The position numbers were made by a program, and so were the translations under genes. A stretch of 64,000 bases of DNA from Haloarcula nitratireducens (GTDB lineage: Archaea; Halobacteriota; Halobacteria; Halobacteriales; Haloarculaceae). The stretch is from positions 1-64,000 of the forward strand of contig NZ_RKLT01000008.1 in assembly GCF_019599505.1 (NCBI RefSeq), read 5' to 3'. Shown here piece after piece: positions 5,114-62,377 of this stretch. The first letter of the stretch is position 1, and each line of letters starts with the position of its first letter. The notes beneath the pieces are model-generated. The model saw only the letters and a list, made by a program, of their open reading frames with translations, was not told where the DNA came from and ran no database searches.

Positions 5114-5214
5114 AAGTACTTCCTGTCATATCAGACGGCAATTCTGGCGGCTGTGAACCGATTCACCTTGCCACTCGAAGAAGAAGCGGATTATCTTTGT
5201 ATCGACAGACAGCG

Positions 5215-5892
5215 ATGGATATGGTAGCAACACGAGAGAGGGCCCTTAGCGAACGCGAGTTCGAACTACTGTTAGAAGGTGCTGGGCGAATAGATGATAC
5301 ACAACAGAGACTCGAAACACGAGCGGCCATTCTCCTTGGAGGCCGTCTTGGACTTAGACCAGGAGAAACAACGCACTTGTCGAAATCGTGGGTTGACCTA
5401 GAGCGGCAGATGATCCAGATTCCCACACAGGAAAACTGTACGAAGGGACGGGATGGTGGCATCTGTGGATACTGCCGGCAGGCGGTGAAACAACGGCTAG
5501 ATCACAATCCCAATACGGATTTTCAGAGCTTTGCTGAGCGTTATTGGCTCCCGAAAACAGAAGCCGCATCTCGAACAGTTCCGTACCACTTTTCGTATCG
5601 GGTTCGAGTTGCGGTTGAATTGTTACTCGACGAACATAGTGGCTGGCCGTATTCGTTCTCGACCTTACAGCGACGTCTAGAGACGGCCCTGAAATTGTCT
5701 CCAGAATTGTCTAACGACGCAACTTCATTACATGGATTACGTGCCACAGCAGCGTCGTACCATGCAGGAAGAGGCTTGGATCTTCCCGCACTCCGAGCAA
5801 TGTTCGGGTGGGAGGACATCACGACCGCACGTCAATATCTAAATGTCGATGGAGCTATGACCCGACGAGCGCTGGACAGTATTCATCAGTAA
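5215..5892 (+). CDS. Tyrosine recombinase/integrase, catalytic domain only (candidate invertase)
   Basis: 225 residues with the catalytic constellation of the lambda-integrase/Xer family. The first arginine is in LGLRPGE, the HxxR box is in LHGLRATAAS, and the tyrosine nucleophile is in TARQYLN near the C-terminus. The usual second histidine position reads W (FGWED). A cysteine insertion (C-T-K...C-G-Y-C) could bind zinc. The N-terminal core-binding domain of full integrases is missing, so this is a minimal enzyme. It ends 49 bp from the 3' end of the convergent methylase gene, which makes it the obvious candidate for acting on the 54-bp inverted repeats at 8237 and 9758. It could equally be a plasmid dimer resolvase or an orphan integrase. 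Confidence 0.88.
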   Translation: MDMVATRERALSEREFELLLEGAGRIDDTQQRLETRAAILLGGRLGLRPGETTHLSKSWVDLERQMIQIPTQENCTKGRDGGICGYCRQAVKQRLDHNPNTDFQSFAERYWLPKTEAASRTVPYHFSYRVRVAVELLLDEHSGWPYSFSTLQRRLETALKLSPELSNDATSLHGLRATAASYHAGRGLDLPALRAMFGWEDITTARQYLNVDGAMTRRALDSIHQ

Positions 5893-5941: not shown

Positions 5942-8900
5942 TTACTCCATCGGGCCTACATCTCCAAGATAAGTGTATTTCTCAGCGACCTTCTCGAAGT
6001 ACGCTTCCGTCATAATTCGAGGATTCGACACCCGATGGAAGTCATCAAGGACGAACTGCATTTCCTCCTCATCCAGCCCATATGCGTGGAACACGGCCGC
6101 GTCGACTTCGGCTTGTAGTTCACGCCGGGTCTCCATATCCGTCGCCGGATCAATCCCACCGAGTCGCTCACGCATTTTAGCAAACTCCTCACCGTAACAG
6201 TTGAGCTTCGCCGCACGATCAGCGATGTAGTGGAACCAGTTGTCGCCGTCAGTGAGTCGGGGCGCCTGTGACTCCTCAAACTTGTACTTAGAGGCGTGGG
6301 AATCAACCTTTGTCCGCATTAAGAAATCGAAGGGGATGCTGTTGATCAGCCCAAGCGCGACGAAAAGCTCCTTATCGGTGAAAACACGGTCGTAAGCACT
6401 GTGAATCGGGAATTCCGAAAGATCACCCTTGGTAGGGTTCGCCTCAAATGGCCGGACCGTGTACAGCGTATGGACGACCACTCCACCGGGTGGGATTACA
6501 GCCGCAATGAGCGTCCGTTCGTCAGTTGCACGAGCGACCTCACGGAGCACAAGTCGATACTCAGAGCTATGGAGACGGACGTCTTCCAAGGAAAGTTCTA
6601 GACGGTCGAATTCCTCGGTTAGCAATCGATTGACGAAACGCTTCTGGGAACTTGACGGGAGATGGCTGAACTCAGGGTCATCATTGAACTTGTTGTAGAT
6701 AGCCTTCTTGAGGCTGATTGCCTCGTCCCGGGCACGGAAGTTCTTCTCTCGAACGCGACGCTTCGCGCTCAACTCCTCGTTATCCTCATCGACACTCCAC
6801 AAAGAAACTGGTTCAAGGTCGTCGACGTAGGTCGACTCATAACAGAATTGGTGGATATTCTTTCCCTGATAGACCGGATAATCCCCTTTGGATTCGTCGT
6901 CGATGAATCTATCTCGGTCTCGTCCCCGATCCAGTTCCTTGTACAGGACCGTACGCCAAGCACCTTCAATTTCGGTCGCCAATGGAGGTGTTTGGAGAAT
7001 TTTATCCAGCACTGAGACCTCCTGTTGATCCTCGATATTTGGGAATATCCGAGCACCGGGAGAATACTCCTTGAGGATGCGTGCGGGGATCTCCAGAGCT
7101 ACATCATCAATCGACCGAAGGGTATCAACAGAGGTCTGATGGAAGATACCGTTAACAGTGTCAGTATTCCCGGAATTCCGGAATGTTACTATTCCGAAAT
7201 TATACTGACCGTGGATGTCATTGAAGGTCCCATTGTTCTCGAATCCAATTATATGCTGAACCGTCGACTCCTCGAGCATATGGACTCGCAAATCCTTCCC
7301 AGCGGCAGCATTGAAAAACGGACCAGGAAGCAGCTGTGAAACATACCCACCATCTCTGACGATATCATAGACTCGCTCAAAGAACAGTAGCGACAGGTCG
7401 TTCGTCCGTGCAACCTGTTGCCCTTCTACGCTTGGCGTCTGGTACTCGTATTCTCCACTCTGGTTGATATAGGTCGCTTGGCGTTCCTTGTCACGCTGGA
7501 ATTCCTCCCATTCAGAAGCGATTTCAGGGGTCTCTAAAAGCTCCTCTACCTTCTTGTCCTTCTCACTTGGCGGGCGGCTACGAAACTCAGTATCGTACTT
7601 TGGGAAGAAATCCGTCCGATATGGCTTCAGTTCATCCCACGGGGGGTTTCCAATGATGACATCAAAGCCGCCTTCTCGATAGACTGTCGCGAACTCAAGC
7701 ACCCAATGAAACGGTGAGAATTCCTCTAATTCCCCAAGAGAAACATCCTCGTCAGCGAGTTCGTTGAACTGATCGCGGATTTTCTCATTAAGCTCCTCAC
7801 TGTGGGAGTCGATTTTTCGCTCAGCCATTTTACGAGCGTTCTGCGCTTCACGGGCTGAATCCGCCGCCCGATGACGGTCCTGTTCCCGAATGACATCCTC
7901 ATAGAGGTCCTTGACCGCAGTCCCGACACCCCAATTCGAGAGTGACGCGTCGCCGGCATCCTCCCGTGCGACTTCTTGGAGTTCAGTGAATCCAATCAGC
8001 GAGTTGCCCTGACGGATGTTGAAATCAATATTCGGGAGTGGTTCGACCTCGTTCGGTTCGTCCTCGATATCAGCGACCATCGACAGCCACAAGCGTAGTT
8101 TGCAGATCTCGACTGCTCCGTCCTCGATATCGACCCCGTAGAGATTGTTGAGGATGATAGACCGCTTTGCGAAAAGTGATATCCCTCCATGCCCTCCTTC
8201 AATACTCTCTAATTCCTCGCGACTACGACTCTCCAGCTCCCAGCCTTGTCCTTCAGCTTCGAGCCGCTGGAAATACTCAATGCATTGTATGTATAGGTCC
8301 ATCAGAACCTCCTGTGCGGCGAGCAGGAAGGCGCCACTTCCAACGGCGGGGTCGAGAACGTGTGCTTCCTTCAGAATATCGTGGTAGAGATTCTCCACAT
8401 GGCTGGTCTGAACGTTTTCCGTTGGAACTTGCTGAGTTATGGTTCCGCCATCGGCAACAGCTTCTGTGGTAGTATCTGCCTCGGGCACGGGGAAGCCGAA
8501 CACGTTGTCGATCTCGTCGTAGTCCGCGCCCACAGCCTCGTTGAGCTGATCGAGAAGATACGGATGGATTGTCCGCCTGGCCATGAACCCCGTGATCTCT
8601 TCGGGTGTGTAGTACGCTCCCATCTCCTTCTGATTGACCGTTTGCTCGAAGATGTGACCCAGAATCGCTGGGGAGAGGTTCTTGGGATCGACGATATCGA
8701 GTCGTTCGTCGACGTTCCAGTTCCAATCGGAGAGGAAGTCGAGGATATCGTCGAAGAGCTCGTTTGTTTCCTCGGCAGAGCCGCCTAACTTCACGTTCTG
8801 GAACTCCTCTTCGACAGGGTTCCTTGCGAATAAGCCACCGTTCAGGTACGGAAGACTACCGAAGTCAGGATTCTGCTTGTCTTCTGCCAAGTATTTGAAG

Positions 8901-9595
8901 AAAAGCGGTTCGTAGAACTCTTCGTAGTGGTCACCACCCTGGTCAACGACTTCATTCGGCTGTTCGTGAAGGTAATTCGGGTTCCGATCAAGGAGGCGCT
9001 TTTCTTGGATGAAGTATAGGAAGATCATCCGGTCAAGAATGACCTGCACATATCGTTGCTTCGCATCACCACGATCGTCGGGAATGCCCGTGACCTCTTG
9101 AATGAGATCTGTCCGGAGTTCCTCGAACTGTTCATAGAACTCCTTGACGACCTGCTGCGTGTCGTATAGCGTATCATAAATCGCAGCAGCAGAACCGTAC
9201 TCAATCGAGTTCAGTTTCTGGAGAATAGTGTTCTTCTCTCCGCTGTCCCTCGTGAACTGTTCCTTCGAGAACGAAATCTTCTGATGCTTAATTCGACCGT
9301 GCTGCTGCCCCTCCCAGCTCCGAACTCGCGTGATGAAGGTAAAATTCTCGAAATCGTTGGTGGCAACGAGGTTGGTGTGTCGTGAGCGATTTTCCGGTTT
9401 GAAATCTGTGGCTGTCTCGCCGGGGCCCGCATTGACAATAACGATGAATTCGTCATCATCAAGCTGGACTACGAGTTCGTTGTCGTCACCTAGTTTCGGG
9501 CGTGGTTTGAGCCCGCGCTTTTCAAATGAGTTCGCGATATCCCGTAGAGAGTCCCAGCCCGCAATATCGGATGCGGTGATTTGCTGGAGAGTCAT
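5942..9595 (-). CDS. Eco57I-family DNA adenine-N6 methyltransferase (BREX PglX/DISARM-like), expressed version
   Basis: A 1217-residue class I methylase. A helical N-terminal region (1-400) precedes AdoMet motif I at D415-PAVGSGAF. Catalytic motif IV NPPW is at residues 650-653. A variable target-recognition region (about 700-1080) and a conserved C-terminal helical end follow. It should methylate adenine in a specific DNA sequence to mark self. Its promoter and residues 1-435 lie on a segment bounded by perfect 54-bp inverted repeats. From I436 on, it is homologous to the headless gene at 9608-12064, and the divergence rises sharply just outside the repeat. The partner restriction factor is probably the PLD-SNF2 helicase at 12073-15879. 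The start has GGTGGT just before ATG and a TATA-like TCATATGA about 26 bases upstream. Confidence 0.92.
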   Translation of the reverse strand: MTLQQITASDIAGWDSLRDIANSFEKRGLKPRPKLGDDNELVVQLDDDEFIVIVNAGPGETATDFKPENRSRHTNLVATNDFENFTFITRVRSWEGQQHGRIKHQKISFSKEQFTRDSGEKNTILQKLNSIEYGSAAAIYDTLYDTQQVVKEFYEQFEELRTDLIQEVTGIPDDRGDAKQRYVQVILDRMIFLYFIQEKRLLDRNPNYLHEQPNEVVDQGGDHYEEFYEPLFFKYLAEDKQNPDFGSLPYLNGGLFARNPVEEEFQNVKLGGSAEETNELFDDILDFLSDWNWNVDERLDIVDPKNLSPAILGHIFEQTVNQKEMGAYYTPEEITGFMARRTIHPYLLDQLNEAVGADYDEIDNVFGFPVPEADTTTEAVADGGTITQQVPTENVQTSHVENLYHDILKEAHVLDPAVGSGAFLLAAQEVLMDLYIQCIEYFQRLEAEGQGWELESRSREELESIEGGHGGISLFAKRSIILNNLYGVDIEDGAVEICKLRLWLSMVADIEDEPNEVEPLPNIDFNIRQGNSLIGFTELQEVAREDAGDASLSNWGVGTAVKDLYEDVIREQDRHRAADSAREAQNARKMAERKIDSHSEELNEKIRDQFNELADEDVSLGELEEFSPFHWVLEFATVYREGGFDVIIGNPPWDELKPYRTDFFPKYDTEFRSRPPSEKDKKVEELLETPEIASEWEEFQRDKERQATYINQSGEYEYQTPSVEGQQVARTNDLSLLFFERVYDIVRDGGYVSQLLPGPFFNAAAGKDLRVHMLEESTVQHIIGFENNGTFNDIHGQYNFGIVTFRNSGNTDTVNGIFHQTSVDTLRSIDDVALEIPARILKEYSPGARIFPNIEDQQEVSVLDKILQTPPLATEIEGAWRTVLYKELDRGRDRDRFIDDESKGDYPVYQGKNIHQFCYESTYVDDLEPVSLWSVDEDNEELSAKRRVREKNFRARDEAISLKKAIYNKFNDDPEFSHLPSSSQKRFVNRLLTEEFDRLELSLEDVRLHSSEYRLVLREVARATDERTLIAAVIPPGGVVVHTLYTVRPFEANPTKGDLSEFPIHSAYDRVFTDKELFVALGLINSIPFDFLMRTKVDSHASKYKFEESQAPRLTDGDNWFHYIADRAAKLNCYGEEFAKMRERLGGIDPATDMETRRELQAEVDAAVFHAYGLDEEEMQFVLDDFHRVSNPRIMTEAYFEKVAEKYTYLGDVGPME
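8237..8290 (-). repeat. 54-bp perfect inverted repeat, left copy (inside the methylase gene)
   Basis: On the minus strand this reads ATACAATGCATTGAG... to ...AAGGCTGGGAG, encoding I-Q-C-I-E-Y-F-Q-R-L-E-A-E-G-Q-G-W-E from residue 436. It is identical over all 54 bases to 9758-9811 on the plus strand. Matching stops immediately on both sides. It contains an imperfect dyad CAGC-N8-GCTG that could be a recombinase core. Confidence 0.97.
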
Positions 9596-9607
9596 ACCAC
9601 CTGAAAC

Positions 9608-12064
9608 TTGCTTTACTCATATGAAAATGATGGATATGAGGGTGACTTTCGACTGAATTGGCCAATACACTTGTTAGGTACAACACGAGAAGCAACTCGT
9701 ATTTCACCGACATCCGCAGAACAAGTCGAAAACGGCCAACAGCGACACGCTCAGTTGATACAATGCATTGAGTATTTCCAGCGGCTCGAAGCTGAAGGAC
9801 AAGGCTGGGAGTTAGAATCTAGAACGCGAGAAGAGATAGAGGAAATCGAGTCAGGAAAAGGCAGCCCATCACTGTACGCAAAGCGAACGGCCATCATCAA
9901 CAACTTGTACGGAGTCGATATTGACGAAGGGGCTGTTGAGATTTGTAAGCTCAGACTCTGGTTGTCGATGGTCGCTGATATCGAGGATGAGCCGAGCGAG
10001 GTGGAGCCGCTCCCCAACATCGATTTCAACGTACGGCAGGGGAACAGTCTAATCGGCCAACTCGATACGGACATCGAGAGTAACGAAGATGGAGACAGCG
10101 ATCTCGATTCTTGGGAGGTGAAAACCCGTTTTGATGACGTGAAAGAGGCCATCAAGAAACACAAGATAGCTGAGACCAGTGTTGAAGCCCAGGAATGGCG
10201 GAAAGAGGCAGAAGACAGAATAGAGGAACACCGAGACAAATTTGACGAAATCCTTCGGCGAGAATTCCAAGACGCTGGCTTTGACGACATAACGATCGAG
10301 GAAATTCGGGAGTGGGTCCCCTTCCACTGGCCGCTAGAGTTCGCCGACGTCTTCGAGAAAGGTGGATTCGACGTGTTCATCGGGAATCCACCGTGGGACA
10401 TGCTCTACGCGAATCGCGACGACTTCTTCATCCGCTACGATGAGCAGTTCCGTACCTATCCGTCAGAGGAAAAGGACGGTGTGATGGAAGACCTCCTTTC
10501 GAACCCTGAAGTCGCCTGGGATTGGGAGGACTACAAGGACTCGATGGAGACTCAAGCAGATTTCTTCACACAGGGAGATGTCTATAAGCTCCAATCTCCG
10601 GTGGTGGGCGGTCGGACGATGCCGACAAAGAACGAGCTATCCGCTCTATTTCTAGAGCGAGTCTTCAGACTCTCTAGAGACGGCGTGAAGGTGAGTCTGC
10701 TCCTCCCCGGCACGATCTTCGGGGGAGTGATGGGGAAAGACCTGCGGACACATTTACTGGACCACACAGACATAGAGAATCTCATCGGATTCGAAAATAA
10801 GGGAATCTTTGAGCAGATACACCGGCAGTACCGATTTGCAATTCTGACGTTTGAGTATGGTGGAAAAACCAGTCGACTCCGAGGTATTTTCAATCAACGG
10901 AGCATGGACGTAGTCTACAATATCCAAGATGTGGCCGCAGAAATCCCGCGTGAAGTGCTTCTCAATTATTCTCCCGAGGGTAGAATTTTCCCCTCGATCA
11001 CGTCGCAAGTGGAAGCCGACGTTCTCAGCAAGGTAGTCACCCAACCATCTCTTGATGAGAAAATCGAAGACGCATGGTCAGTGGATATGTTGACGAAGGA
11101 GTTCGTTGAGTCCACGGATAAAGACCGATTGCAAAATTCCCCAGATGATGCTGATTATCCAGTATATGGGGGAGCGAACATCCACCAGTTCGAACACGAT
11201 AACACTCACACTGAGAGTTTGGACAACCCTCGGTACTGGAGTCGGGAGATGTACGATCCACCGAATAGTGCTCAGTACCGTGTTCGAGAGAAGAAGTTCA
11301 ACAGGGGTAATCTCAAACGGGCGATCTACGACGCCTTTGGAGGTTCAGAGACGAGCAAGTCTCAAGTTCAATTCGTAGATGAACTACTCGAAGAACACCG
11401 TGGTCACGGACTCGAAGAAGAGGATGTCCTGCTCGATTGTACTGAATACCGAATCGGCATTCGAGACGTGTCTCGTTCCAGGGACGAGCGGACGATCATA
11501 GCGACGGTGCTTCCGAAGGACGTCATCTGTCTCCACACCATTAACACGTTCAAGCCGTTCGCTATTGAGCCTGAAGAGGACCACCTCACAGAGTCCCCAC
11601 TTCGGTCACCCTACGTCCGGCGATTCACGAATCAAAAACTCTTCGTGGCAACGGGGCTCCTGAACAGCATTGCGTTCGATTTCCTGATGCGGACCAAAGT
11701 CGAGACGCACATCGTCAAACGCGAGCTATTGGAATCCCAGCTACCACGCCTCACCGACGGCGATGACTGGTTCCACTACATCGCTGAACGAGCTGCCCGG
11801 TTGAACTGTTACGGGGAGGAATTCAAAGAAATGCGTGAGCGCCTCGGTGGAATCGAGGCAGCGACAGGAGATCAAGAACGAAGAGAATTACAGGCTGAAA
11901 TCGACGCGGCCGCATTCCACGCGTATGGCCTGGAACGTCGTGACGTGAAGTTTGTTCTCGACGACTTCCATCGCGTTGGGAATCCGAAGTTGATGGATGA
12001 GATGTACTTCGATCTGGTCTTGGAGAGATATGATCTGCTGGACCAGAAGGGACCGTTACCGTAG
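9608..12064 (+). CDS. Silent C-terminal methylase cassette (headless Eco57I-type methyltransferase)
   Basis: An 818-residue open frame. Only residues 51-818 are homologous to the methylase on the other strand, starting exactly at the 54-bp repeat. NPPW is at residues 260-263, a diverged target-recognition region follows, and the C-terminal end is well conserved. The first 50 residues are unlike any part of the other methylase. AdoMet motif I is absent, so the protein as it stands cannot be an active methylase. The frame is open throughout, with no decay, which argues for a maintained reserve cassette rather than a pseudogene. It ends 8 bp from the convergent helicase stop. Confidence 0.85.
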   Translation: MLYSYENDGYEGDFRLNWPIHLLGTTREATRISPTSAEQVENGQQRHAQLIQCIEYFQRLEAEGQGWELESRTREEIEEIESGKGSPSLYAKRTAIINNLYGVDIDEGAVEICKLRLWLSMVADIEDEPSEVEPLPNIDFNVRQGNSLIGQLDTDIESNEDGDSDLDSWEVKTRFDDVKEAIKKHKIAETSVEAQEWRKEAEDRIEEHRDKFDEILRREFQDAGFDDITIEEIREWVPFHWPLEFADVFEKGGFDVFIGNPPWDMLYANRDDFFIRYDEQFRTYPSEEKDGVMEDLLSNPEVAWDWEDYKDSMETQADFFTQGDVYKLQSPVVGGRTMPTKNELSALFLERVFRLSRDGVKVSLLLPGTIFGGVMGKDLRTHLLDHTDIENLIGFENKGIFEQIHRQYRFAILTFEYGGKTSRLRGIFNQRSMDVVYNIQDVAAEIPREVLLNYSPEGRIFPSITSQVEADVLSKVVTQPSLDEKIEDAWSVDMLTKEFVESTDKDRLQNSPDDADYPVYGGANIHQFEHDNTHTESLDNPRYWSREMYDPPNSAQYRVREKKFNRGNLKRAIYDAFGGSETSKSQVQFVDELLEEHRGHGLEEEDVLLDCTEYRIGIRDVSRSRDERTIIATVLPKDVICLHTINTFKPFAIEPEEDHLTESPLRSPYVRRFTNQKLFVATGLLNSIAFDFLMRTKVETHIVKRELLESQLPRLTDGDDWFHYIAERAARLNCYGEEFKEMRERLGGIEAATGDQERRELQAEIDAAAFHAYGLERRDVKFVLDDFHRVGNPKLMDEMYFDLVLERYDLLDQKGPLP
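9758..9811 (+). repeat. 54-bp perfect inverted repeat, right copy (inside the silent cassette)
   Basis: This copy is identical to the reverse complement of 8237-8290. It encodes residues 51-68 of the cassette in the same reading frame as residues 436-453 of the expressed methylase, so crossing over here keeps the frame in both directions. Confidence 0.97.
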
Positions 12065-12072
12065 TTCCCGCA

Positions 12073-15000
12073 TCACTGTCCGACAACCCCCCAGCATACG
12101 AGCTTCGCTTGCACATCACTCTCCCCCATCAGTTTTGTCTGGTATTCAGTGGAGGTTTCGACGTTTTCTTCCAAGAACTCCTCAAGTTGACTGAGGAACT
12201 CCACGGTCGGCCACTCTGGGAAGGAGTCGTACTGCTCGTTCTGGCGGAAGATCTCGCGTAGAATTCGGTCTTCATCGGTGTTCGCCAGTTTTACCTCCTG
12301 CAACCGCTCTTCGATGTCGTTAGCCCATTCTCCTAGCGTTTCGAACTCTTCGACAGGAGCCGGCTCATCGCCGTAATTCGGCTGAACGTAGCGACTGATG
12401 AAATCGAGGATCGTCTCCTGTTCCTTCGAGAAAGCCTCTCCCTGTTTGAAAGCTCCCTCAACCTGGCCTTCTCGAATCACCTCAAGACGCTCGTCAAGTA
12501 CTGCTTGAATCTCCTCACGGTTCGACAACACCGTATCTGGGTTTCCGGTGATCGGTTCGCCGTCAACTGAAGGGTCGATGTTGAGCGTGCTCACGGGCCG
12601 CTCTTTGACCTCGTCAGCGAAGGGCTTGTAGTAGAAAGCACGACGGACGCGTCCAAGCGGGGACTCGTGGTCATCATCGTCGAACCAGAGGTGGGCAAGG
12701 GCGAACACGCCCGGCCGTGGACCGGCATCGTGGTCAGTTACATTCGTGTAGAGGAATTCTCGTTCTTCGGGCGGGTCATCGAAGAAGTCCTCAGCGTACT
12801 CGAAGTCTTCCGCAGTCAGGTCATAATCCTCGTTCAGTTCTCGCTTTAGAAGGTACCGCTCGAACGCAGCGTGTTCATTACTCCCAGCATTGCGGAGAAG
12901 TGGATTCTTGCTCGTGTCGTCGAGTTCATTCACGTCGTCAATTTCACGGGACTTCTGGAGAGAGTCCTCAATCTCGTCCACCTGTAATTCCCCGATTGTC
13001 TTCTCCGTGTCTACACCTGTCTTTTCGAGAATCTGGTCTTCGTTCGGATCGAGGATGTTGTTCTCCTTCCCGACGATGAGCGCGATATCGTTGATCTTTG
13101 CCTGCAGGCGTTTCAGGAGCTTGATCGCCGCCTCGATGTCGCCGTCCGGGTAGAAGTTGTGAACGTGTTTCTCGGCGGTACTCCCGATCCGGTCGACCCG
13201 CCCGACACGCTGGACAATCCGCATCGGGTTCCATGGCAGGTCGTAATTGACCACAACATGAACGTCCTGAAGATTAACCCCTTCACTCAGCGTGTCAGTG
13301 GCCACTACGTACTGTAGCTCTGAGTCCTCCGACTCGGCGAGCGTTTGCTGGTAGCCTGACGCCTCGGGAGCAAAGCGTTGAATGATGTCCTGTTTATTTT
13401 CGTCGCCACCCTTGACGACGGCACTGTTCGCCTCTGTGAGTGGGGAATCCTCGTTGTCACAAAGGGTTCTATAGACGTAGTCTGCAGTTGCCCGATACTG
13501 CGTGAAGATGAGCACCTTCTGATCGTGATTAGTGAGGACATCTGCAAGTCGGTCGATCTTCGGGTCGCGGAACTCGCGGAGTGAAAAGACGGCCTCGTAA
13601 AAGTCGCGTGTGGCAGGGTCAACTTCACTCAGGTCACAATTCGGGTAGAGAATCGGATTCATCTCTTCTTCAGGAATATCGGGGAGGACACCAGCGTCGT
13701 GGTCAGCGAGCCATTGACGCGTGGAAACCGCATAATCGCTCACATCACCCGCATCACGGGCGACATCACCGATGAACTGCGAGAGGAAGTACGAGAGAAG
13801 GGTGAGGTCCTCCCTGATGTACGTCTTCACCTCGCCGATGGTGGCGTCTGCCAGTTCATCTCCCTCGGTATCAGCTCCTTCTTCCGATTGAATAGCGGTG
13901 GTATCGAAACCAAATTCTTCGAGTGTTTGTTCGAGATCTTCAGCAGCGTCGGCTCCTTCGACAAAGTCACCGAGTTCAGAGTCATCCCCTTCCCGAACAG
14001 TTCGGAGCATATCGATGTCTTCGTCCTCGGGAAGTTCACCAAGAAGGCCGAGAAGCTGGCGTTCGCTCTGATGTAGCGTCTCGATCGACTGGACGAACGC
14101 GTACGTTGAGGACTCGAGCCGTTTGAGGAGGTTCAGCTTGTAGAGAGCTTTCAGCGTGCTCCCTGCTTTCGGGTTTTTGACTGTGATGTGGGGTAGGTGG
14201 AGGGCGTCCATCACGTCGGGAAGCATCCGATATATTGGTTGGTAGGCCGCCGGCAGGGAGTACTGTTGCTTGTTGAGTTTCGGCGGCTTGAAGCTCATCT
14301 CGAAGTCTTCGCTGTCCTGTATCTGGTCTTTGACGTGCTTGCGCGTTCGGAGAACCATCACTTCGTTAAGGATATTCGATATCTCAGAGGAGTGTCGCTG
14401 GAGCTGCTCGGTGATTTCTTGCTGTTCGTCGTCGCCGACCTCCTCTTTCCCGGATGCGATGCGTTTTCGCGTCTCCGAGAGTTCGATATATTCGTCGAAC
14501 GCATCAAAGTCGAGTGACGCCTTGTTCCGAAGTTCCTCCGGGCTGGTGAACAAGCTGATGAGGTTCTTTAGGTCGGTAGCGCTGTTATTGATCGGGGTCG
14601 CGGTCAGCATAATCATCGTCTTTCCGCGGAGTTGCCTGAGATTCGCGTGTCGTCGCGTCCCCTTGTAGTCATCATCGTGGTCCGGATTCGGTCGCCACTT
14701 CCCGTAGTTCCGGAACCGATGAGCCTCGTCGATAAGCAGGACGTCGAACTCGTCTTTGAGGTCCTGCACCTCGTCGTAGGAGAGATTCTGGAACTTGCTG
14801 ATACTCATCACGTCAAGGTGCGTGCCGTCTACCTCTAACCCGAAGTACGGATTGCCGTCTTCGTCAGTGTCGTTCTGGAGTAGGTCTTCCCACTGATCAG
14901 TCAGGTTGGCCGGGACAATGAGGAGACAGTGGTCGCCACGTTGGCGGTAGTCGTGGAGGAGTTCACCGCCAATAAATGATTTTCCCAGGCCGACCGAGTC

Positions 15001-15879
15001 GGAGACGATGCACCCGTTGAACTGGGAGAGCTTCTCCTTTGCACTCTCGTACCCGAGCTTCTGGAAGTAGTACAGTGGGCTGTCACGGATGTTGACGTTC
15101 CCACTCAGTTCGTCGTAGGCGAGCAGCTTGTAGAGCTCGAACGGTTCGAGATACGTGCCCAGCTCCTCAGATGACGTCTCCTGGTCAGACTCGTCCTCCT
15201 GCTGTTCCTTCCAGTCCTGGTACTCCTCGCTGTTCTCGATGATTCGGATGATCTCCTCACTGAACTCCTCGGCGTTGGCCCACTGGTTGTCGTACCACTC
15301 CTCGAACGCTTCGGCCTTGTGTCGATCCTGACTCGTGAGGTTCAGTTCGATGTTGTTCTGGTGGCCGCTCTTGGTGAAGTTCGAGGAGCCGACAACTGTA
15401 GCGCATGGGCGGGTGTCTTCATCCTCGTCTTGTCCCCAATCTTCGTCGTCTTCGAGTGGTGCTCGAAATGATGCACCCTTTGCGTGGAAGTAACCGTTTT
15501 CAGGATTTCGCACACGGACGCTCACCTCGCCTTCGGCGATAAAGTCTCGTAGCCGGTCTAGTCGCCCGATCTGAGCGTTATTCAGCTCCGAGATGCTTTC
15601 TCTCACCTCTCTTTTGAGCTCCTCTTTGAGATTCTGCCCCTCACCGATTTCGTCAGCAGTTCCCCTATTCGTCTGACGACCCATCAAGATCCGAAGTGGA
15701 GCGTGGCCGAGTTCCTCGGGGTCAGCCAGATTTTCAAGGTCTTCCCGGTAGAGGTCGAATCCTGAGAGATAAAAGTATCCAGTTGCGATACGGCCTTCCT
15801 CGATCTGGGGAATAATCCGCTTGTAAGCGTCTTCTAGTGTTCTATTGGCGTTATCGACAAGCGGAGGAAGCGAGAGCAT
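12073..15879 (-). CDS. PLD-nuclease/SNF2-helicase fusion, probable restriction effector of the methylase system
   Basis: A 1268-residue protein. Residues 1-230 form a phospholipase D-like nuclease domain with the HKD-type motif F-H-A-K-G-A then GSSNFTKSG around residues 150-190. A SNF2/superfamily 2 helicase follows: motif I DSVGLGKS (about 295), DEAH box LLIDEAHRF, and motif III MLTATPINNS. The C-terminal RecA lobe has TLSEGVNLQ and QRVGRVDRIGS (motif VI). It is predicted to translocate on unmodified DNA and cleave it. The parts resemble DISARM DrmC (PLD) and DrmD (SNF2) joined together, or the nuclease-helicase half of a type ISP enzyme. No drmA, drmB, pglZ or brxC is present in the window, so this is not a complete known BREX or DISARM system. 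Confidence 0.9.
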   Translation of the reverse strand: MLSLPPLVDNANRTLEDAYKRIIPQIEEGRIATGYFYLSGFDLYREDLENLADPEELGHAPLRILMGRQTNRGTADEIGEGQNLKEELKREVRESISELNNAQIGRLDRLRDFIAEGEVSVRVRNPENGYFHAKGASFRAPLEDDEDWGQDEDEDTRPCATVVGSSNFTKSGHQNNIELNLTSQDRHKAEAFEEWYDNQWANAEEFSEEIIRIIENSEEYQDWKEQQEDESDQETSSEELGTYLEPFELYKLLAYDELSGNVNIRDSPLYYFQKLGYESAKEKLSQFNGCIVSDSVGLGKSFIGGELLHDYRQRGDHCLLIVPANLTDQWEDLLQNDTDEDGNPYFGLEVDGTHLDVMSISKFQNLSYDEVQDLKDEFDVLLIDEAHRFRNYGKWRPNPDHDDDYKGTRRHANLRQLRGKTMIMLTATPINNSATDLKNLISLFTSPEELRNKASLDFDAFDEYIELSETRKRIASGKEEVGDDEQQEITEQLQRHSSEISNILNEVMVLRTRKHVKDQIQDSEDFEMSFKPPKLNKQQYSLPAAYQPIYRMLPDVMDALHLPHITVKNPKAGSTLKALYKLNLLKRLESSTYAFVQSIETLHQSERQLLGLLGELPEDEDIDMLRTVREGDDSELGDFVEGADAAEDLEQTLEEFGFDTTAIQSEEGADTEGDELADATIGEVKTYIREDLTLLSYFLSQFIGDVARDAGDVSDYAVSTRQWLADHDAGVLPDIPEEEMNPILYPNCDLSEVDPATRDFYEAVFSLREFRDPKIDRLADVLTNHDQKVLIFTQYRATADYVYRTLCDNEDSPLTEANSAVVKGGDENKQDIIQRFAPEASGYQQTLAESEDSELQYVVATDTLSEGVNLQDVHVVVNYDLPWNPMRIVQRVGRVDRIGSTAEKHVHNFYPDGDIEAAIKLLKRLQAKINDIALIVGKENNILDPNEDQILEKTGVDTEKTIGELQVDEIEDSLQKSREIDDVNELDDTSKNPLLRNAGSNEHAAFERYLLKRELNEDYDLTAEDFEYAEDFFDDPPEEREFLYTNVTDHDAGPRPGVFALAHLWFDDDDHESPLGRVRRAFYYKPFADEVKERPVSTLNIDPSVDGEPITGNPDTVLSNREEIQAVLDERLEVIREGQVEGAFKQGEAFSKEQETILDFISRYVQPNYGDEPAPVEEFETLGEWANDIEERLQEVKLANTDEDRILREIFRQNEQYDSFPEWPTVEFLSQLEEFLEENVETSTEYQTKLMGESDVQAKLVCWGVVGQ

Positions 15880-15958: not shown

Positions 15959-16192
15959 TCAAACTGGCCGAAGATCCCGCCAGCGGACGTCAACGGTGTC
16001 ACCATTGGCGATTTCAACCCGGAAAAGATAGCCTTCTCGTTGATCACCAGTCACAGTTCCTGCATCGTCTGAGAGGATCTCAACGATTGTTCCTCGACGT
16101 CCATGGAGACGCTCGTGATCTGGATCTGTCACGTCCGGGATATCGATTCGGACCGTGTCTCCAATATCGAATCGTTTCATAGTAGGTGTCAT
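15959..16192 (-). CDS. Small SH3/KOW-like beta-barrel protein
   Basis: 77 residues. The pattern F-D-I-G-D-T-V-R-I-D-I-P ... L-H-G-R-R-G-T-I-V-E-I ... VRWRDLRPV is typical of a KOW/SH3-like barrel that binds nucleic acid or protein. Similar small proteins are common in haloarchaea. The ATG at 16192 overlaps the stop of the upstream membrane gene (TGATG). A second ATG at 16180 would remove four residues. The longer in-frame extension upstream lies inside the membrane gene and is not real. It is the last gene of the TIR operon. Confidence 0.75.
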   Translation of the reverse strand: MTPTMKRFDIGDTVRIDIPDVTDPDHERLHGRRGTIVEILSDDAGTVTGDQREGYLFRVEIANGDTVDVRWRDLRPV

Positions 16193-16959
16193 CAGCTCTG
16201 AATCCAGAATAGCCCTATCGAACCAGCCATAACGGTCGCACCGGTTATTAGCCCGACTGCCGTCGGAGACGGCAGAGAATAGCCTGCACCCGTGAGCAAA
16301 GGAGTTAGAATGAACCCGCCAGCGTATCCTCCGACAGTAAGATATCCAGCGGCAAGGAGACGGACAAACCACTGTTCGACAATCGTATGCGAGCGGTGAT
16401 CTGGGTCGTCATCCGGTCGGGGCTCAACGATTTCCGGATCGGGCTTTTCCCGCTTGAGGTATCGCCATTCATCAAGATACACTCGGACAGGAAGGGCAGA
16501 CTCGATTTGGTTGAGAATAGCATATCGGGCCTTGTTCAGCCGGCGATACGACTGTAAACTCTGATACCAAAAGTAACAGATCAGACTTCCAAATCCAGAG
16601 GCGAATAGAACGATTGCTGCACTCGTAGTCGTCAAATTTCCTCTGGCGAGAGCGAAGAGTCCGGCTAGTATCGACGTCAAAATCAAGCCGAAAAATCGGT
16701 TCATCTGAACCCGCTGATTCGCAGTCTCGATTGCCACCTCCCCATAGTGGATGTATTGATCCATCAAGCGATCCGTCTCTTCGTCGTTCAGATTCGTTAA
16801 CGGCCCATTCTCTACGGCATTGGGCTCGGCCGGTTCGGCCGGATCTCCCCCAGTAACCTCTTCGGGGTGTTCCGGCTCTGTTTCAGGCGTGTCTTTGTCC
16901 TCGGTATTTTCGCCAAGATTTGCATTATTCGGCTCGCTCTCGTCAGTTGATTCAGACAT
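16192..16959 (-). CDS. RipA-like family membrane protein (putative effector of the TIR operon)
   Basis: 255 residues. The N-terminal 60 residues are acidic and disordered. A helix with Q-Y-I-H-Y-G-E precedes two membrane segments (about 92-110 and 115-135). The signature YFWYQSLQSYRRLNKARYAI follows, then LPVRVYLDEWRYL, then a second pair of membrane segments near the C-terminus. The WY..L.SYR.LN and E..LP..Y..EW pattern is what I know from RipA-type octameric membrane proteins found beside defence genes. With a TIR-type signalling protein upstream it may act as a membrane-disrupting effector; this is inference. It overlaps both neighbours by a few bases. Confidence 0.72.
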   Translation of the reverse strand: MSESTDESEPNNANLGENTEDKDTPETEPEHPEEVTGGDPAEPAEPNAVENGPLTNLNDEETDRLMDQYIHYGEVAIETANQRVQMNRFFGLILTSILAGLFALARGNLTTTSAAIVLFASGFGSLICYFWYQSLQSYRRLNKARYAILNQIESALPVRVYLDEWRYLKREKPDPEIVEPRPDDDPDHRSHTIVEQWFVRLLAAGYLTVGGYAGGFILTPLLTGAGYSLPSPTAVGLITGATVMAGSIGLFWIQS

Positions 16960-17179
16960 ATTCCGCTAAGGTGTCGGCGAATGATGCTTTGCGCCATTCT
17001 AAGAATAGGAGACCGTCGAAACAGTTCAGATCCAAACGCTGTTCGGTCGCCATTACGCTTTCTGCGTAGTACCCGTACTGATTGATGAGCGCCTTATCAC
17101 GCTCTGGCCGTCTGGGTGAAGATCGTATACAGCCATCCCCCTGCATTGGGCCATACTCGTCCGAGGGTAGATTATGCAT
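16952..17179 (-). CDS. 75-residue linker protein resembling the head of the RipA-like protein
   Basis: A short open frame that fills the gap between the TIR gene and the membrane gene, overlapping each by 8 bp. Its segment K-A-L-I-N-Q-Y-G-Y-Y-A-E...T-E-Q-R-L-D-L-N-C-F-D-G-L aligns by eye with R-L-M-D-Q-Y-I-H-Y-G-E...A-N-Q-R-V-Q-M-N-R-F-F-G-L of the downstream membrane protein. It may be a partial duplication that kept only the cytoplasmic helix, or a remnant of a tandem copy. The tight overlaps favour translation. Confidence 0.5.
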   Translation of the reverse strand: MHNLPSDEYGPMQGDGCIRSSPRRPERDKALINQYGYYAESVMATEQRLDLNCFDGLLFLEWRKASFADTLAEYV

Positions 17180-18005
17180 GCTTCGCGATGGCGTTCACGA
17201 TAGACTTCTGCCGCCAACCGACGATCTCATTGGCTTCCTCCTTTACCACTACTGGAAGCCGCTCGTTCCCGTTCGGTCGCACACCGATAATGGGTTTCTC
17301 GAAATGGTCAGCCATCTCAATCTCCTCCTCAATCCACTCGCTGTGCGAGACGTACATCCCAGCGACGACGACGACCACATTTGCCTGCCCAACCTGCTGA
17401 TAGAGCTGCTGACGAAGATCATTCTTATCTTCAAACTCCATCGGATCGTCCTCTGGGACACTGAAGTTCTGCCAGTCCAGCCGATTTTCATCATCGAGGA
17501 ACTCCTCAATACGTTCACGCTCTTCGGAGTACTTCCACGAGTGACTCACAAACACCCGATACGGCCGATCTTCCAGAGGGAGACGCGGCTGCGTCGACGT
17601 GCCGGTCTCATCTGTTGTTGAACCAGATGAAACTAGGCCACCAAGTCCTTGAGCGCCCTTGTATGTGAAATAGCCTGCCACAGCAGCAGCGATAATGAGT
17701 TCAGGGGCGTCGTGCCAAAGGTAACGAAGTGGATCGTCGTGTGGATCATGATCAACTTGTCCACCTTTCCAGTCGGCATATCCGGCGAGGAGGTCTTTTC
17801 CGAGATCGACGACATCGGTGTTTTGTTGGTTCGTGGTTGGAACGGATGTCGTATCGGAGCCTCCAGTAGTATCCTCGAACAGGCCAGCAAACGGATCGTC
17901 TTCCCCGTTTGATTTGATAAGGGCATTCACGTCAAGGCTTCCGGTGGGGCTTTGCACCTCGACGGTCGGCACGTTGGTGACAGGGTCGTTTTCGTTGGGT
18001 GTCAC
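17172..18005 (-). CDS. ThsB-like TIR-domain protein (MTH538 type) with N-terminal membrane segment
   Basis: 277 residues from the GTG at 18005. A disordered N-terminus and a possible membrane segment (LIIAAAVAGYFTYKG, about residue 105) precede a TIR-like domain (about 147-277). That domain has YRVFVSHSW, the strand VVVVVAGMYVSHS and the helix WIEEEIEMA, whose glutamate is the likely catalytic residue. This fold is the one used by Thoeris ThsB to make NAD-derived signals on phage infection. I chose GTG 18005 because a TATA box (18027-18035) lies 26 bases upstream. The longer ATG at 18083 runs back through the promoter into the PolB remnant. No SIR2/ThsA gene is near; the membrane protein two genes on could replace it. 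Confidence 0.8.
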   Translation of the reverse strand: MTPNENDPVTNVPTVEVQSPTGSLDVNALIKSNGEDDPFAGLFEDTTGGSDTTSVPTTNQQNTDVVDLGKDLLAGYADWKGGQVDHDPHDDPLRYLWHDAPELIIAAAVAGYFTYKGAQGLGGLVSSGSTTDETGTSTQPRLPLEDRPYRVFVSHSWKYSEERERIEEFLDDENRLDWQNFSVPEDDPMEFEDKNDLRQQLYQQVGQANVVVVVAGMYVSHSEWIEEEIEMADHFEKPIIGVRPNGNERLPVVVKEEANEIVGWRQKSIVNAIAKHA

Positions 18006-18026
18006 AGGCGATACATCGCAATTTGG

Positions 18027-18035
18027 ATATTTAAA
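18027..18035 (-). promoter_or_regulatory. TATA box of the TIR operon
   Basis: On the minus strand this reads TTTAAATAT, 26 bases before the GTG at 18005, as expected for a leaderless haloarchaeal transcript. It sets the start of the TIR protein. Confidence 0.6.
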
Positions 18036-18058
18036 CCCAAGGGGATATTTGCTATTCA

Positions 18059-18559
18059 GGCATCGAAGCCCGACAGCGCTCAACCCCGCCGTTCATCGAG
18101 GACGTCCAGCGGGACTGTCTCGACCGGCTCGATACCACGCGGTCACCGGACGCGGTGCTCGGACGGCTCGAACGAGCAATCGACGAACTGCAGGCGGGCA
18201 ACGTAGCAGTAGAGCGGCTCGTCGAGCGGAATCGTGTCTCCAAGCCCTTGGAAGGCTACTCACAGAATACACAGAACGTGGCCGCCTTGAAGCGAGCCCG
18301 CGAGAAGGAACTTGCAGTCCACCCGGGCCAGGATATCGAATACGTGGTCGTCGACGACGAGAAATCCTCGCGAGACCGGGTCGCCCCCGCCCACGAGGAG
18401 ATCAAGACCTACGACGCCTCGTACTACGAGACGCAGCTGGTTCGAGCGATTGAGAGCGTGCTGTTGCCGCTGGGGTGGGATCGTACAGATATTCGACGGA
18501 GACTCGCGGAGACACGGGAGGTGGAGCTGACGGAGTTTACAGCAGCCCGGAACGGATGA
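18059..18559 (+). pseudogene. polB: 3' fragment of a family B DNA polymerase gene
   Basis: From about 18059 the plus strand encodes G-I-E-A-R-Q-R-S-T-P-P-F-I-E-D-V-Q, continuing to a stop at 18559 with YYETQLVRAIESVLLPLGW and a Cys-free tail. This is the thumb/C-terminal end of a haloarchaeal PolB, about 165 of more than 700 residues. All polymerase motifs are missing. The homology starts abruptly just behind the TIR promoter, so the TIR module probably replaced or inserted into the 5' part of a plasmid polymerase gene. Confidence 0.8.
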
Positions 18560-57700: not shown

Positions 57701-59061
57701 TGCTGTTCCGCACGCGTCCCACGTGCCCCCTCGACAGTCAGCTGTTCCGAGGAGGGCACGAGTACGAAATTCGCGAGCTCTCGGCCACTCAGCACGAACT
57801 CCGGTCGGGTCTTCCCACGTCCGGTTGTGATCTCACGATCTAAGAGCCGCTGCAGCGCCGCTCGTGCATTCCGTTCTTTCGTGGCTGCCCGGAAGCCGCT
57901 GTCGCGTATCCGTTCGGCCTCCACCTCGTAATACGGCCCGTCGAGTGGATCGAAAACTGGCGCGAGTGACTGCAGGTGCTTGTCGAGCGCTTCACGCTCG
58001 CCGTCACTGGATGGAACGCTGAGTGCTCGAATATTCGCGGTGAACGAGCGCTTTGGGTTTTTGGCCTCGATGGCCCCGACGCGTTTTGCTTGTGGGCCAC
58101 TCAACTCCTCCCGGCTTCGGTGGTCAGATTCGTCGTCAAACTGGAAGAGTGACCCGAAAACTCGCTGAGCCCAGGTATCCCGGCCATCGATGATGTCTTC
58201 CTTGCGAAGTTCGGCATCGCCCTGCCAGCTATCTCGCTGCTGGAAGACGACCTGGAACGCGATTGGCGCACTCGCCTCCGTCAAGTCATCGACGAGTGAT
58301 GCGAGCGCACCGCCAGGCTGGTCGACAGCGTCGGGGCTATCGTCGACGTCGTCGGCAGTGAATGGCGAGAGTGAGGTCATCCAGTCCTGCTTTCGGGTCG
58401 CCGAGCCCTGCCACCGCACGCCGAGTGGGGAGACGGTATCGGTCGCTGGCCGGGCGAGTATCGTTCCCTCTGACGTCATCGTTGGTTTCGCTAGCGCCGT
58501 GAGTGGCTCATCCTCGAGAATCGCATCTGGTGGAGCGAGTTCGAGGGCAGTATCCCCAGCTTCGATGACGTGGTCGGCAGACAGGTCGGTGACCGTCCCT
58601 CCATCTGCAGCTGATTCAGCTTCCGTTAGTTCCGCTTGACTGTCGTCATCAGTCTCGAGCTCGTAGTGCTCGTCAGGGCCGAACTCGTACGTGAGCTCGC
58701 CCGACTCATAGTGCTCGACGAATGTCTCGCGGTCGAATTCGACAGGCTGTACGAGTCGGGATGCGACGTCGACCTCGGTACGCTCGATGTCGAACGTCTC
58801 GGGATAGATCGACCGGAGCCGTTTCTCCAGGGTATCCAGATGGTCGTCGGCACCGTAGTAGAATTCGACGGGGTCATCTTTCCCCTCGCTCAGCGCGAGG
58901 AATTCGAAGCGTAGCGGTGTGTCGCTATGTAGCGGATTGAGTTTGTCAGCTAGCCCTGTCGAGTCCGTTGAGGTCAGTTTGTGGAGGCTCTCCAGTGCCT
59001 GCGGCAGACGCTCCGGATTGAGTCGTTCGGAGGTTGGCGTCACGCGAAGGTACTCACGCAT
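54769..59061 (-). CDS. Large VirD4/TraG-like coupling ATPase of a conjugation-type system
   Basis: 1430 residues from the ATG at 59061, which has GGTGACGACG just before it and overlaps the upstream stop by 8 bp. An N-terminal region of about 500 residues is followed by Walker A GRFGTTGSGKSK (about 525-536), ILIIPKNDDM, and a second catalytic half with VVNLLVDEAASVVV (Walker B, about 810). The C-terminal 450 residues include a restriction-nuclease-like part (FAIEVETTTPENPAKVL). Such HerA/FtsK-type pumps feed DNA into a transfer channel. The nuclease-like C-terminus could be a relaxase substitute or a DNA-binding domain. Confidence 0.85.
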   Translation of the reverse strand: MREYLRVTPTSERLNPERLPQALESLHKLTSTDSTGLADKLNPLHSDTPLRFEFLALSEGKDDPVEFYYGADDHLDTLEKRLRSIYPETFDIERTEVDVASRLVQPVEFDRETFVEHYESGELTYEFGPDEHYELETDDDSQAELTEAESAADGGTVTDLSADHVIEAGDTALELAPPDAILEDEPLTALAKPTMTSEGTILARPATDTVSPLGVRWQGSATRKQDWMTSLSPFTADDVDDSPDAVDQPGGALASLVDDLTEASAPIAFQVVFQQRDSWQGDAELRKEDIIDGRDTWAQRVFGSLFQFDDESDHRSREELSGPQAKRVGAIEAKNPKRSFTANIRALSVPSSDGEREALDKHLQSLAPVFDPLDGPYYEVEAERIRDSGFRAATKERNARAALQRLLDREITTGRGKTRPEFVLSGRELANFVLVPSSEQLTVEGARGTRAEQQSRNPLPRPHQDLMSEFRDGMAIGYALDDTGEAEDEPTQIPPRLLPTHYGRFGTTGSGKSKALINDMLSLYDNTEGPTILIIPKNDDMAQNYMRAHARRFGMTDLEENVVHFPIPDVLPGFSFFDLEPSMESGRRREDAVQRKADHYEEILKLVIGTDRYERATVAPTLIKTLIKALFDEEYGRENGLYRASTDYFAHRQLEHVVDQLWEAGPPNENIGDAPRSSDEEVTRTIRRQLQLDPNTFANVMGGVGNRLAYISQDTHLRQIFNNTENQFDFRDVLDEDTVILFDLGDLRDDAARIMTGVILTNLDAALKDRKQALSQHPDDYVVNLLVDEAASVVVSDIMNDLLEKGRGFRLSVGLSMQFPEQMETEGGRKIYLNALNNIGSSLIGKINVDRELARAMAHEEMDPADFANRIRSLPRGEWIASLPSPTFGETGPYPFSLEPLPIPPGHPESESPLTEREEEQFTETLSSMHEDISDEHGVPAATDASTTRTPTDVHEVLDIGSDDLDVAIAKVVRSLQLREGCREENGWVAVEAVDDELRRLFDDVEPPSYDALADIRERSRYLDTTVDIDADELRIRLTEAGEDVSTPETGSVQAAGGSAHDAALLQIEEELTALGFTVSILAQDGSEKPDARASHPDVDDRFAIEVETTTPENPAKVLTNLRKAQEAGDIPLFVVRPGNDETEWAERVDGILTPPVRTLQNGETRFYTTDSNLTFNGGATEEGGVTAVRPATDDENGTQNIWQRDGDEIVLHDTSGTEHIRLPSLGKLSKDRVPAIYSYDHAADEYIVYEHGEQHIYETKSAFEDDWVRVKKPFIPEAELQTPDYSPTSYAIVILPEEGNPVVYDTDGTYSMDTILDTVTTSEGEETAGQQADHIQQAPQPLIDDIADDPEAVVERFAETHLVEDPQSRVSAGEVYEIYEQWAEAHGIDTDSKPWFGRRLGNYVTFERDTDSENGDSVRYYEGLALKSE

Positions 59062-61261: not shown

Positions 61262-62375
61262 CGTGTGGGTCCTCCCGGCGTGAGTGGCCGATGATCGATT
61301 GGTCGCGAACGGCACGTTCTGCCTCGTCGTAGTCGTGTTCGCGGCCGTTCCAAAAGTCCATATTCAGAACGAACAGCTCGACCGTGCTGAGTCGACGTGC
61401 GGACCACCCCGACGCCTGCTGGATGAACTCGGATCGCACGTCGTTGACGCGACTGTCGAGCTTCTCGAACATCTGCGCACGACGTTCGACGTCGGTAAGG
61501 TCCTCGCGGCGGGTGACGAACGGGTTGAACAGGAAGCCGATGACCGGGAACTGGGTCAGCTTCTCGGCGGGGGTGCCCTCGTCGCGGAAGCGGTCGTAGA
61601 CCTCTATCGGGCTAACTTCAACGCCGATGTAGTACCGGACCTGCTGGATGCCCCGGTCACGCATCTCCTTCGGCCGTGTCTCCCGGTACTCTTCGAGGAG
61701 TTCCCGGAAAATCGGGTTCTCCGTGACGTCTTCGTCAGTGAGTCGATCCTCGATGGTCTCGGTGATCTGCTCGACCGGGAAGGAACGGGTTGTGGCGTGG
61801 AGTTTGAGCTTCGAGTCCAGCTCTTTGTTGGCGAACTCTTCGCCAGCGTCCTGGAGCTGCGCCCAGTCGTCGGACATCGCGAAGTCCATGTTGGCCGGAT
61901 CGATCTCGATGAACGCCTCCATCGCGCCGTCTTCACGCTGGATGGCACCAGCGCCCGGCCACGCCCGCTTGATGTTCGTGAGGTCCTGTGTCCGCTCGTC
62001 CGGCTTGAACGGCGTGTAGTTCGCGAGTCCGCCTTCGTTCCGCTCTGTCTCGTTGGTACTCGTGTCGGCGTCGGCGGGCGCACTGAACGTGATCTGAGGT
62101 CGCTTGAGGTACCGATAGACGTCTTTGGTCCACGTCCAGGCGTTCAGGTGGGTTGGTGAGACGTAGATGACGGCGACGCCAAAGCTAAGCCCGCCAGCGA
62201 CGAACGGGAGGGCAAGCGACTCGATCCCGGTGAGCCCCGCGATAAACAGCCCAATAATGGGGAAGGCGATGAGCATGCCAACGTCTCCTTCCTCGATATT
62301 GAGATACGGGATGCGACTCTCCTCGCCGAACTGATCCATGATGCGCCGTGCGGCCGCGTCTTGATCTGCTGACAT
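61254..62375 (-). CDS. Membrane protein with VirB3/VirB4-N-like features
   Basis: 373 residues. Two membrane segments near the N-terminus (VGMLIAFPIIGLFIAGLTGI, ALPFVAGGLSFGVAVIYV), then a soluble domain of about 280 residues (AFIEIDPANMDFAMSDDWAQ, RSFPVEQITETIEDRL, RYYIGVEVSPIEVYDRF). That layout resembles the PrgI/VirB3 segment plus the N-terminal domain of VirB4. It overlaps the ATPase gene, so VirB4 looks split into two coupled proteins here. Confidence 0.75.
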   Translation of the reverse strand: MSADQDAAARRIMDQFGEESRIPYLNIEEGDVGMLIAFPIIGLFIAGLTGIESLALPFVAGGLSFGVAVIYVSPTHLNAWTWTKDVYRYLKRPQITFSAPADADTSTNETERNEGGLANYTPFKPDERTQDLTNIKRAWPGAGAIQREDGAMEAFIEIDPANMDFAMSDDWAQLQDAGEEFANKELDSKLKLHATTRSFPVEQITETIEDRLTDEDVTENPIFRELLEEYRETRPKEMRDRGIQQVRYYIGVEVSPIEVYDRFRDEGTPAEKLTQFPVIGFLFNPFVTRREDLTDVERRAQMFEKLDSRVNDVRSEFIQQASGWSARRLSTVELFVLNMDFWNGREHDYDEAERAVRDQSIIGHSRREDPHDA

Positions 62376-62377
62376 TG

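Follow-up and report, generated by a model that had tools for sequence, protein, structure and literature searches.

The window, meaning the whole 64,000-nucleotide stretch of Haloarcula nitratireducens DNA that was analysed, carries a gene for an Eco57I-type adenine methyltransferase, flanked on one side by a tyrosine recombinase gene, INT, and on the other by a second, headless methyltransferase body, beyond which lies a gene for a PLD-nuclease and SNF2/helicase protein (Table 1). The assignment to the Eco57I-type (gamma) class follows from a PF07669 match of 92.2 bits, above the gathering cut-off of 25.3, together with a DPxxGSG motif I and an NPPW motif IV. PADLOC IIG models also match the methyltransferase; no nuclease motif could be established in its head, for which the structural model is poor (pLDDT 49). 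The arrangement in which the head is joined to the INT-side body is called state I, and that in which it is joined to the helicase-side body state H; the window is in state I. INT adjoins the INT-side body and was absent from an earlier, sequence-only reading of this DNA.

Table 1. Features of the methyltransferase locus, in window coordinates
Feature	Coordinates	Strand	Remarks
Tyrosine recombinase INT, probable invertase (231 aa)	5197-5892	+	PF00589; convergent with INT-side body
Eco57I-type adenine methyltransferase, full-length form I (1217 aa), the window's state	5942-9595	-	PF07669, ORF
INT-side body (764 aa), currently joined to head	5942-8236	-	NPPW and probable recognition region
Inverted repeat arm, INT side	8237-8290	-	54 bp, in frame
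Candidate crossover core CATTGA, INT-side arm	8277-8282	-	8 nt inside sharp edge; putative
Invertible segment	8291-9757		1467 bp: leader, start codon, residues 1-435, motif I DPAVGSG
Head's leader within invertible segment	9596-9757	-	162 nt; putative promoter
Inverted repeat arm, helicase side	9758-9811	+	54 bp, in frame
Candidate crossover core CATTGA, helicase-side arm	9766-9771	+	putative
Helicase-side body (750 aa), currently headless	9812-12064	+	NPPW and probable recognition region; inversion would give 1203 aa
PLD-nuclease and SNF2/helicase protein (1268 aa)	12073-15879	-	PF13091, PF00176, PF00271; PADLOC C3a139 HKD+Snf2; convergent partner

The sequence-only reading had proposed that a perfect 54-bp inverted repeat, in the same reading frame in both genes, encloses the start of the methyltransferase. 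Sequence comparison bears this out: the two arms form a perfect inverted pair 1467 bp apart, and both translate in frame to IQCIEYFQRLEAEGQGWE (I436 of the 1217-aa ORF, I51 of an 818-aa ORF at 9608-12064 on the plus strand). The first 50 codons of the 818-aa ORF fall within the invertible segment and are non-homologous. As had been claimed, the start codon, the N-terminus, and motif I (DPAVGSG at residue 415) all lie inside the segment, and the final 70 nt of the leader are conserved among the 10 loci listed that have their repeat at the window's position, here called site A. The further claim that identity stops abruptly on both sides survives in one half. At the inner edge of the arms similarity indeed ends at once, whereas on the outer side the flanks remain 76% complementary over 299 nt, the perfect 54 included, a paralogue-level divergence. 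Within the 60 positions just downstream of the repeat, 28 differ between the window's two arms, and at a background of 0.76 per site the chance of 54 consecutive matches is about 4e-7.

Relatives of the locus were drawn from genome contigs (27 loci), from 10 of the 31 matched plasmid records, and from Halobacteria-class genomes; the loci lie on plasmids and contigs from a number of genera of haloarchaea. Compared with the window, Halobaculum sp. CBA1158 (L031) and Halorubrum salinarum (L032) have the segment inverted, and L028, L029, L030, L033, L034, and L035 have it in the window's orientation. State H is also found in L014, L003, L069, and the truncated L074; Halorubrum salipaludis is in state I. 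Among 21 site-A loci or contig pieces checked for a full ORF from the conserved start, eight I-state loci (the window, L002, L019, L028, L029, L030, L033, and L034) contain one of 1217 or 1207 aa, and four H-state loci (L014, L031, L032, and L069) contain one of 1203 aa, which is the intact alternative enzyme that the sequence-only reading had predicted. L030 and L069 are two copies within one record. The head ORF is interrupted in L035, L021, and L036, and the remaining six are contig pieces without the whole gene. Opposite states occur in closely similar DNA: L019 (I) and L032 (H) share 99.1-99.8% identity in INT, both bodies, the segment, and the helicase. The near-identical L034, L035, and L021 are all in state I, the latter two in a single record (NZ_CP100403.1).

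An exact inversion is preserved within one plasmid record of Halorussus vallis XZYJT10 (NZ_CP100003.1, 167,465 bp), in which positions 121286-167465, the last base, repeat bases 1-46183 at 99.95-99.99% identity. Outside the segment and its repeats, an alignment of the two copies over 44.6 kb shows 4 mismatches and 11 gap positions. The sole rearrangement between these 46-kb copies is the inversion of the 1467-bp segment, which reads in one copy as the exact reverse complement of its counterpart, with identical 54-bp repeats on either side. Both copies stem from one assembly record, and its terminal redundancy is probably an untrimmed circular overlap of a plasmid of 121,285 bp. If the overlap is indeed untrimmed, the reads of one culture contained both states, and the record makes it most likely that both were present in one H. 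vallis culture. If the repeat is a true duplication, inversion would still have occurred in that lineage.

The outcome that the sequence-only reading had named as pointing to a fixed duplication, a single orientation throughout, did not occur: both orientations are found among relatives and in one plasmid record. Inverted repeats bounding a segment seen in both orientations place the locus among the site-specific inversion switches, or invertons, and on these comparisons inversion of the segment can be regarded as good as shown. A fixed duplication in head-to-head arrangement, its halves kept alike by gene conversion and with no ongoing switching, would suit the window taken by itself, which gives one state only, but it conflicts with the opposite orientations in near-identical DNA and, barring an artefact of assembly, is contradicted by the exact inversion in the H. 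vallis record. The breaks that several assemblies show at the repeat also speak against such a duplication, which we consider highly improbable. A 153,008-bp contig of Natrialba sp. SSL1 has its two ends at or within the repeat. Two contigs of genome G160 end there, sharing 79 bp from it, and one contig of genome G124 has both its ends there, in two different bodies. L013 (Halosimplex salinum) and L015 (H. carlsbadense) likewise have contig ends in this position, and the contigs of L009 and L012 begin 54 and 94 nt before the repeat; the contigs of G285 have no ends in it. These breaks fit mixed states and count as support only, since assemblies may also break at a short repeat when a single state is present.

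INT is the probable recombinase. Its residues R54, K120, H179, R182, W205, and Y214, which we take to be catalytic, are invariant in all 57 aligned homologues. A comparison with solved structures gave no match. Its relatives in phage records include several halovirus proteins, with identities of 45% to phiH1 Int1, 44% to the HCTV-5 integrase, 43% to ChaoS9 Int1, and 40% to phiCh1 Int1. The phiH1 record places Int1 within a tail-fibre segment annotated as invertible, and passages of the ChaoS9 paper state that inversion by an Int1-type recombinase has been demonstrated in phiH1 and phiCh1 (PMC6471424). INT is thus a homologous tyrosine recombinase with the complete catalytic set, although it falls in a clade apart from phage Int1, and its gene lies outside the invertible segment rather than within it.

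A survey of 391 Halobacteria-class genomes found 122 with an INT match at E <=1e-3. At an identity of at least 72%, all 18 matches stand beside a methyltransferase body. At 57-66% a matching body is present for four of the 10 matches and absent for six, and below 50% none of the 22 examined, from a larger set, has one. Three of the relatives at 57-66% that do stand beside a methyltransferase (L076, L078, and L079) have no such inverted repeat; the short contig of L081 does not allow a judgement. Since some INT relatives have a methyltransferase neighbour that lacks the repeat, and others have no matching body, the presence of INT is not in itself sufficient for a switch. Direct repeats seen near INT in L077 and L080 were also considered; they are not this switch.

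Relatives at places without a visible inverted repeat, together with the longer paralogous similarity that surrounds the 54 bp in the window, lend some colour to a different account, in which the inversion is real but is the work of the general homologous-recombination machinery (RadA) acting on the repeats, with INT as an unrelated mobile-element gene. The distribution of INT argues otherwise. Among 37 loci, INT is present in 16 of 16 with two bodies (15 of them distinct, L018 being the same as L035) and, within the flanks examined, in none of the 12 with a single body (L001, L004-L008, L010, L011, L016, L017, L020, and L037); nine partial loci (L009, L012, L013, L015, and L022-L026) were set aside in this count. 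The repeat is distributed likewise. Of 20 two-body rows, 19, L021 among them, have the head bounded by an exact inverted repeat of at least 25 bp, and no such repeat is found at the methyltransferase in the 12 single-body loci. The one two-body row missed by the exact-repeat scan, L036, is degenerate, and its arms were detected otherwise; the single-body L005 has an unrelated inverted repeat away from the methyltransferase gene. INT, the second body, and the repeat occur together, and single-body relatives are without all three.

The position of the repeat in the gene provides a second line of evidence. INT proteins of the window's type form clade A (18 rows, support 100/99), and those of L003, L027, L072, L073, and L074 form clade B (99/98). 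As sisters (23 rows, 99/95), the two belong to a larger clade (34 rows, 100/100) that stands apart from phage Int1, in a tree that is midpoint-rooted and whose long branches limit the deeper forks. In four clade-B loci the repeat lies at a different place, site B, 153 nt further downstream in the gene (residue 487 vs 436 in window numbering), at GVDI..EICKLRLW. These four repeats have exact lengths of 80, 46, 38, and 27 bp, enclose loops of 1620-1640 bp, and start within one base of the same point. At both sites the sharp edge of the repeat lies 8 nt before (C/T)ATTGA (offset 9-14), a candidate for the exchange core; no classical dyad was seen by eye in the 54-bp repeat. As the repeat position follows the INT clade, albeit in two lineages only, INT rather than general recombination appears to decide the site. 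The sharp inner edges of the repeat and the kinship of INT with a halovirus invertase also count against RadA as the agent, which we rate as quite unlikely. The sequences thus make it likely that the neighbouring INT catalyses the flip.

Traces of exchange are visible in the repeat itself. It recurs in relatives with other bases, and yet its arms are identical within the genome in nine of 13 loci; imperfect arms are found in L029, L031, L034, and L036, with 1, 1, 2, and 4 mismatches, respectively. Arm differences per 54 bases average 0.62 within genomes vs 2.68 between them, and none of 100000 permutations was as low (13 loci, a count that leaves out the near-copies L035, L021, and L069, partial loci, and site-B loci). 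The 60 bases after the repeat, by contrast, differ at 28-32 positions between arms in all 13 loci. With arms alike within genomes and the adjoining 60 bases diverged, the two copies of the repeat evolve in concert, each renewed by exchange with the other.

Together, these observations make it very probable that the locus is a two-state inverton, in which INT most likely joins the head to either of two bodies and the resulting forms most likely methylate different sequences. The movable 1467-bp piece carries the leader, with its putative promoter, the start codon, and the N-terminal 435 residues with the AdoMet-binding motif I. The two fixed bodies face each other across the segment, each with an NPPW motif and a probable target-recognition region. 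Recombination of the 54-bp repeats, most likely by INT, would then fuse the head in frame to either body, giving 1217 aa in state I, as in the window, or 1203 aa in state H. Most likely the forms differ in the sequences that they methylate, which would alter the self-mark for the adjacent PLD/SNF2 helicase system. What we infer here is the causal role of INT, the location of the promoter, the change of methylation motif, and the restriction role.

Of the two elements that the sequence-only reading had placed in each outside arm, the NPPW motif is found in both bodies outside the segment (residue 650 of the 1217-aa ORF and residue 260 of the 818-aa ORF), and the recognition region is likely. 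The two kinds of body share 32-50% identity across most of residues 556-1072 and 62-85% at the ends; among close alleles of one side, variation peaks at residues 777-826 for I and at about 779-930 for H. A predicted body model of moderate confidence matches structures of M.BseCI, CamA, and BrxX over 344-413 residues (Foldseek), at a mean pLDDT of 66, an rmsd to the matches of 5-9 Å, and TM-scores by query length of 0.25-0.31; residues 1-165 of the model (401-565 of the protein), with pLDDT <50, were left unused. The alignments and the model make it likely that the target-recognition region is located in the bodies. A change of specificity between the states is likely. Conceivably, the flip could instead act as an ON/OFF or activity switch, one fused form being inactive or both forms recognising the same site. 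Disruption of the silent body in L028 and L033 indicates that one form can be lost. Nevertheless, both bodies of the window are open and keep NPPW, their divergence is concentrated between well-conserved ends, and the H-state fused ORF is intact in the four loci noted above, all of which render a mere activity switch unlikely. A switch between specificities is the reading retained below.

In some lineages the switch looks locked in one state. The silent helicase-side body of L028 is broken by IS1595 (12562-15878) and that of L033 has a broken reading frame (12531-14836), the active body being intact in each. The locus of Natrinema sp. DC36 (L036, NZ_CP084475.1, 4060-9667) is degenerate, with a second, inverted copy of parts of the segment and with the INT-side body interrupted by an IS6 transposase. 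In L074 the switch is truncated.

The design had been likened to the hsdS and pglX shufflons of bacteria. The likeness to phase-variable PglX holds, but "shufflon" is a loose term for a single two-state inverton, and the locus belongs to neither BREX nor the hsdS type. Goldfarb et al. are said to have described, in 2015, a phase-variable PglX (BrxX) in Lactobacillus BREX type 1. In the nearest bacterial case found, that of Lactobacillus rhamnosus, an integrase stands between full-length and partial PglX (PMC7513527). The haloarchaeal locus shares with that arrangement a full-length and a partial adenine methyltransferase accompanied by a site-specific integrase, as far as those passages describe it (PMC7513527). 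Its body model also resembles BrxX structures, and public annotation names the bodies of several relatives BREX-1 PglX. Unlike in Lactobacillus, the integrase lies outside the pair, the partner is a PLD/SNF2 helicase, and the host is an archaeon. Membership in BREX was rejected, with a score of 65.2 against the 500-bit cut-off of the NF033452 PglX model. PglZ gave no Pfam match among the 30 window ORFs scanned, which include every listed ORF of at least 400 aa and part of the smaller ones, in a window that holds <6 kb on the INT side of the methyltransferase.

In type I systems hsdS is a separate specificity subunit. In the hsdS inversions of Streptococcus pneumoniae, as outlined in parts of the source, DNA inversion alters the specificity part, a feature shared with the present locus (PMC4948785). 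Here, unlike in hsdS, recognition region and catalytic motif IV would reside in one polypeptide, and an hsdS shufflon was rejected: the exchanged part belongs to the methyltransferase ORF, and there is no separate hsdS gene. With the Int1 modules of phiCh1, phiH1, and ChaoS9 the locus shares a related recombinase (40-45%), inverted repeats, the exchange of gene ends, and the haloarchaeal setting, going by passages of the ChaoS9 paper (PMC6471424). Those modules, however, act on a viral tail fibre from a recombinase gene inside the segment, whereas here a methyltransferase is altered, INT is outside, and the constant N-terminus moves.

DISARM class 1 (DrmMI with DrmD) and the PLD-like anti-phage protein NF042964 are similar in combining elements of the same kind, namely an adenine methyltransferase, an SNF2-type helicase, and a PLD domain. 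PADLOC models of DrmMI (9e-35) and DrmD (1e-33) match, with no cut-off given for either. DISARM class 1 was rejected at 145.5 against the 610-bit cut-off of the NCBIfam DrmD model, as was NF042964 at 142.7 against 1100 bits, and no further large DISARM-type gene was recognised among the 30 scanned ORFs of the window. The PLD/SNF2 helicase protein is nonetheless a probable restriction or defence arm. As its homologue is present in all 12 single-body loci too, the ancestral unit was probably a methyltransferase with a helicase-nuclease.

In bacteria, methyltransferases that switch specificity affect defence against phages, the uptake of genes, and gene expression. The open-access literature searched contained no account of an archaeal cell with a switch of this kind. 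A read-based survey reported no inversions in its six archaeal datasets (PMC5903667), and the term "invert" does not occur in the main text of a survey of archaeal restriction-modification (PMC10609329). The type of switch is known from bacteria; the archaeal-cell case is new so far as this literature goes. On balance, we lean towards a broader proposal: that haloarchaea carry an invertase family dedicated to methyltransferases and kin to the tail-fibre invertases of haloviruses; that at least two lineages of it exchange at different points of the gene; and that plasmids thereby bet-hedge the methylation mark of self and non-self, and perhaps host expression, in what would be the first archaeal phasevarion-type specificity switch. 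The switch links a plasmid defence system to the recombinase family behind halovirus tail-fibre variation. If the proposal is true, plasmids vary their methylation mark by means of a recombinase of the kind that serves their viruses for varying adhesion. Epigenetic bet-hedging in archaea also becomes directly testable in cultivable strains, given complete genomes, a candidate recombinase, and a culture in which both states probably coexist.

Several smaller observations accompany these results. In L077 (6804-13273), an INT relative of about 65% identity lies between two tandem DUF1156/N6_N4 methylase paralogues that share 72-74% nucleotide identity in two blocks, possibly another methyltransferase-diversifying arrangement. 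A C5-cytosine methylase gene stands about 1.8 kb from an INT relative (60%) in L082 (12073-13971). The contig of L006 (PUKE01000032.1), labelled as part of a Nitriliruptoria MAG, carries a haloarchaeal-type methyltransferase/helicase locus and is possibly mis-binned. In the window, genes for an 8xMP membrane protein (16192-16959) and a TIR-domain protein (ThsB_TIR, 17172-18083) make the region beside the switch a probable defence island, and TIR genes lie at a similar place on several related plasmids. Farther along, at 59054-63493, a TrbL/VirB6-like gene (PF19590, 452 bits) and a weak, sub-threshold match to a TraG-like ATPase represent conjugation-type functions on the replicon.
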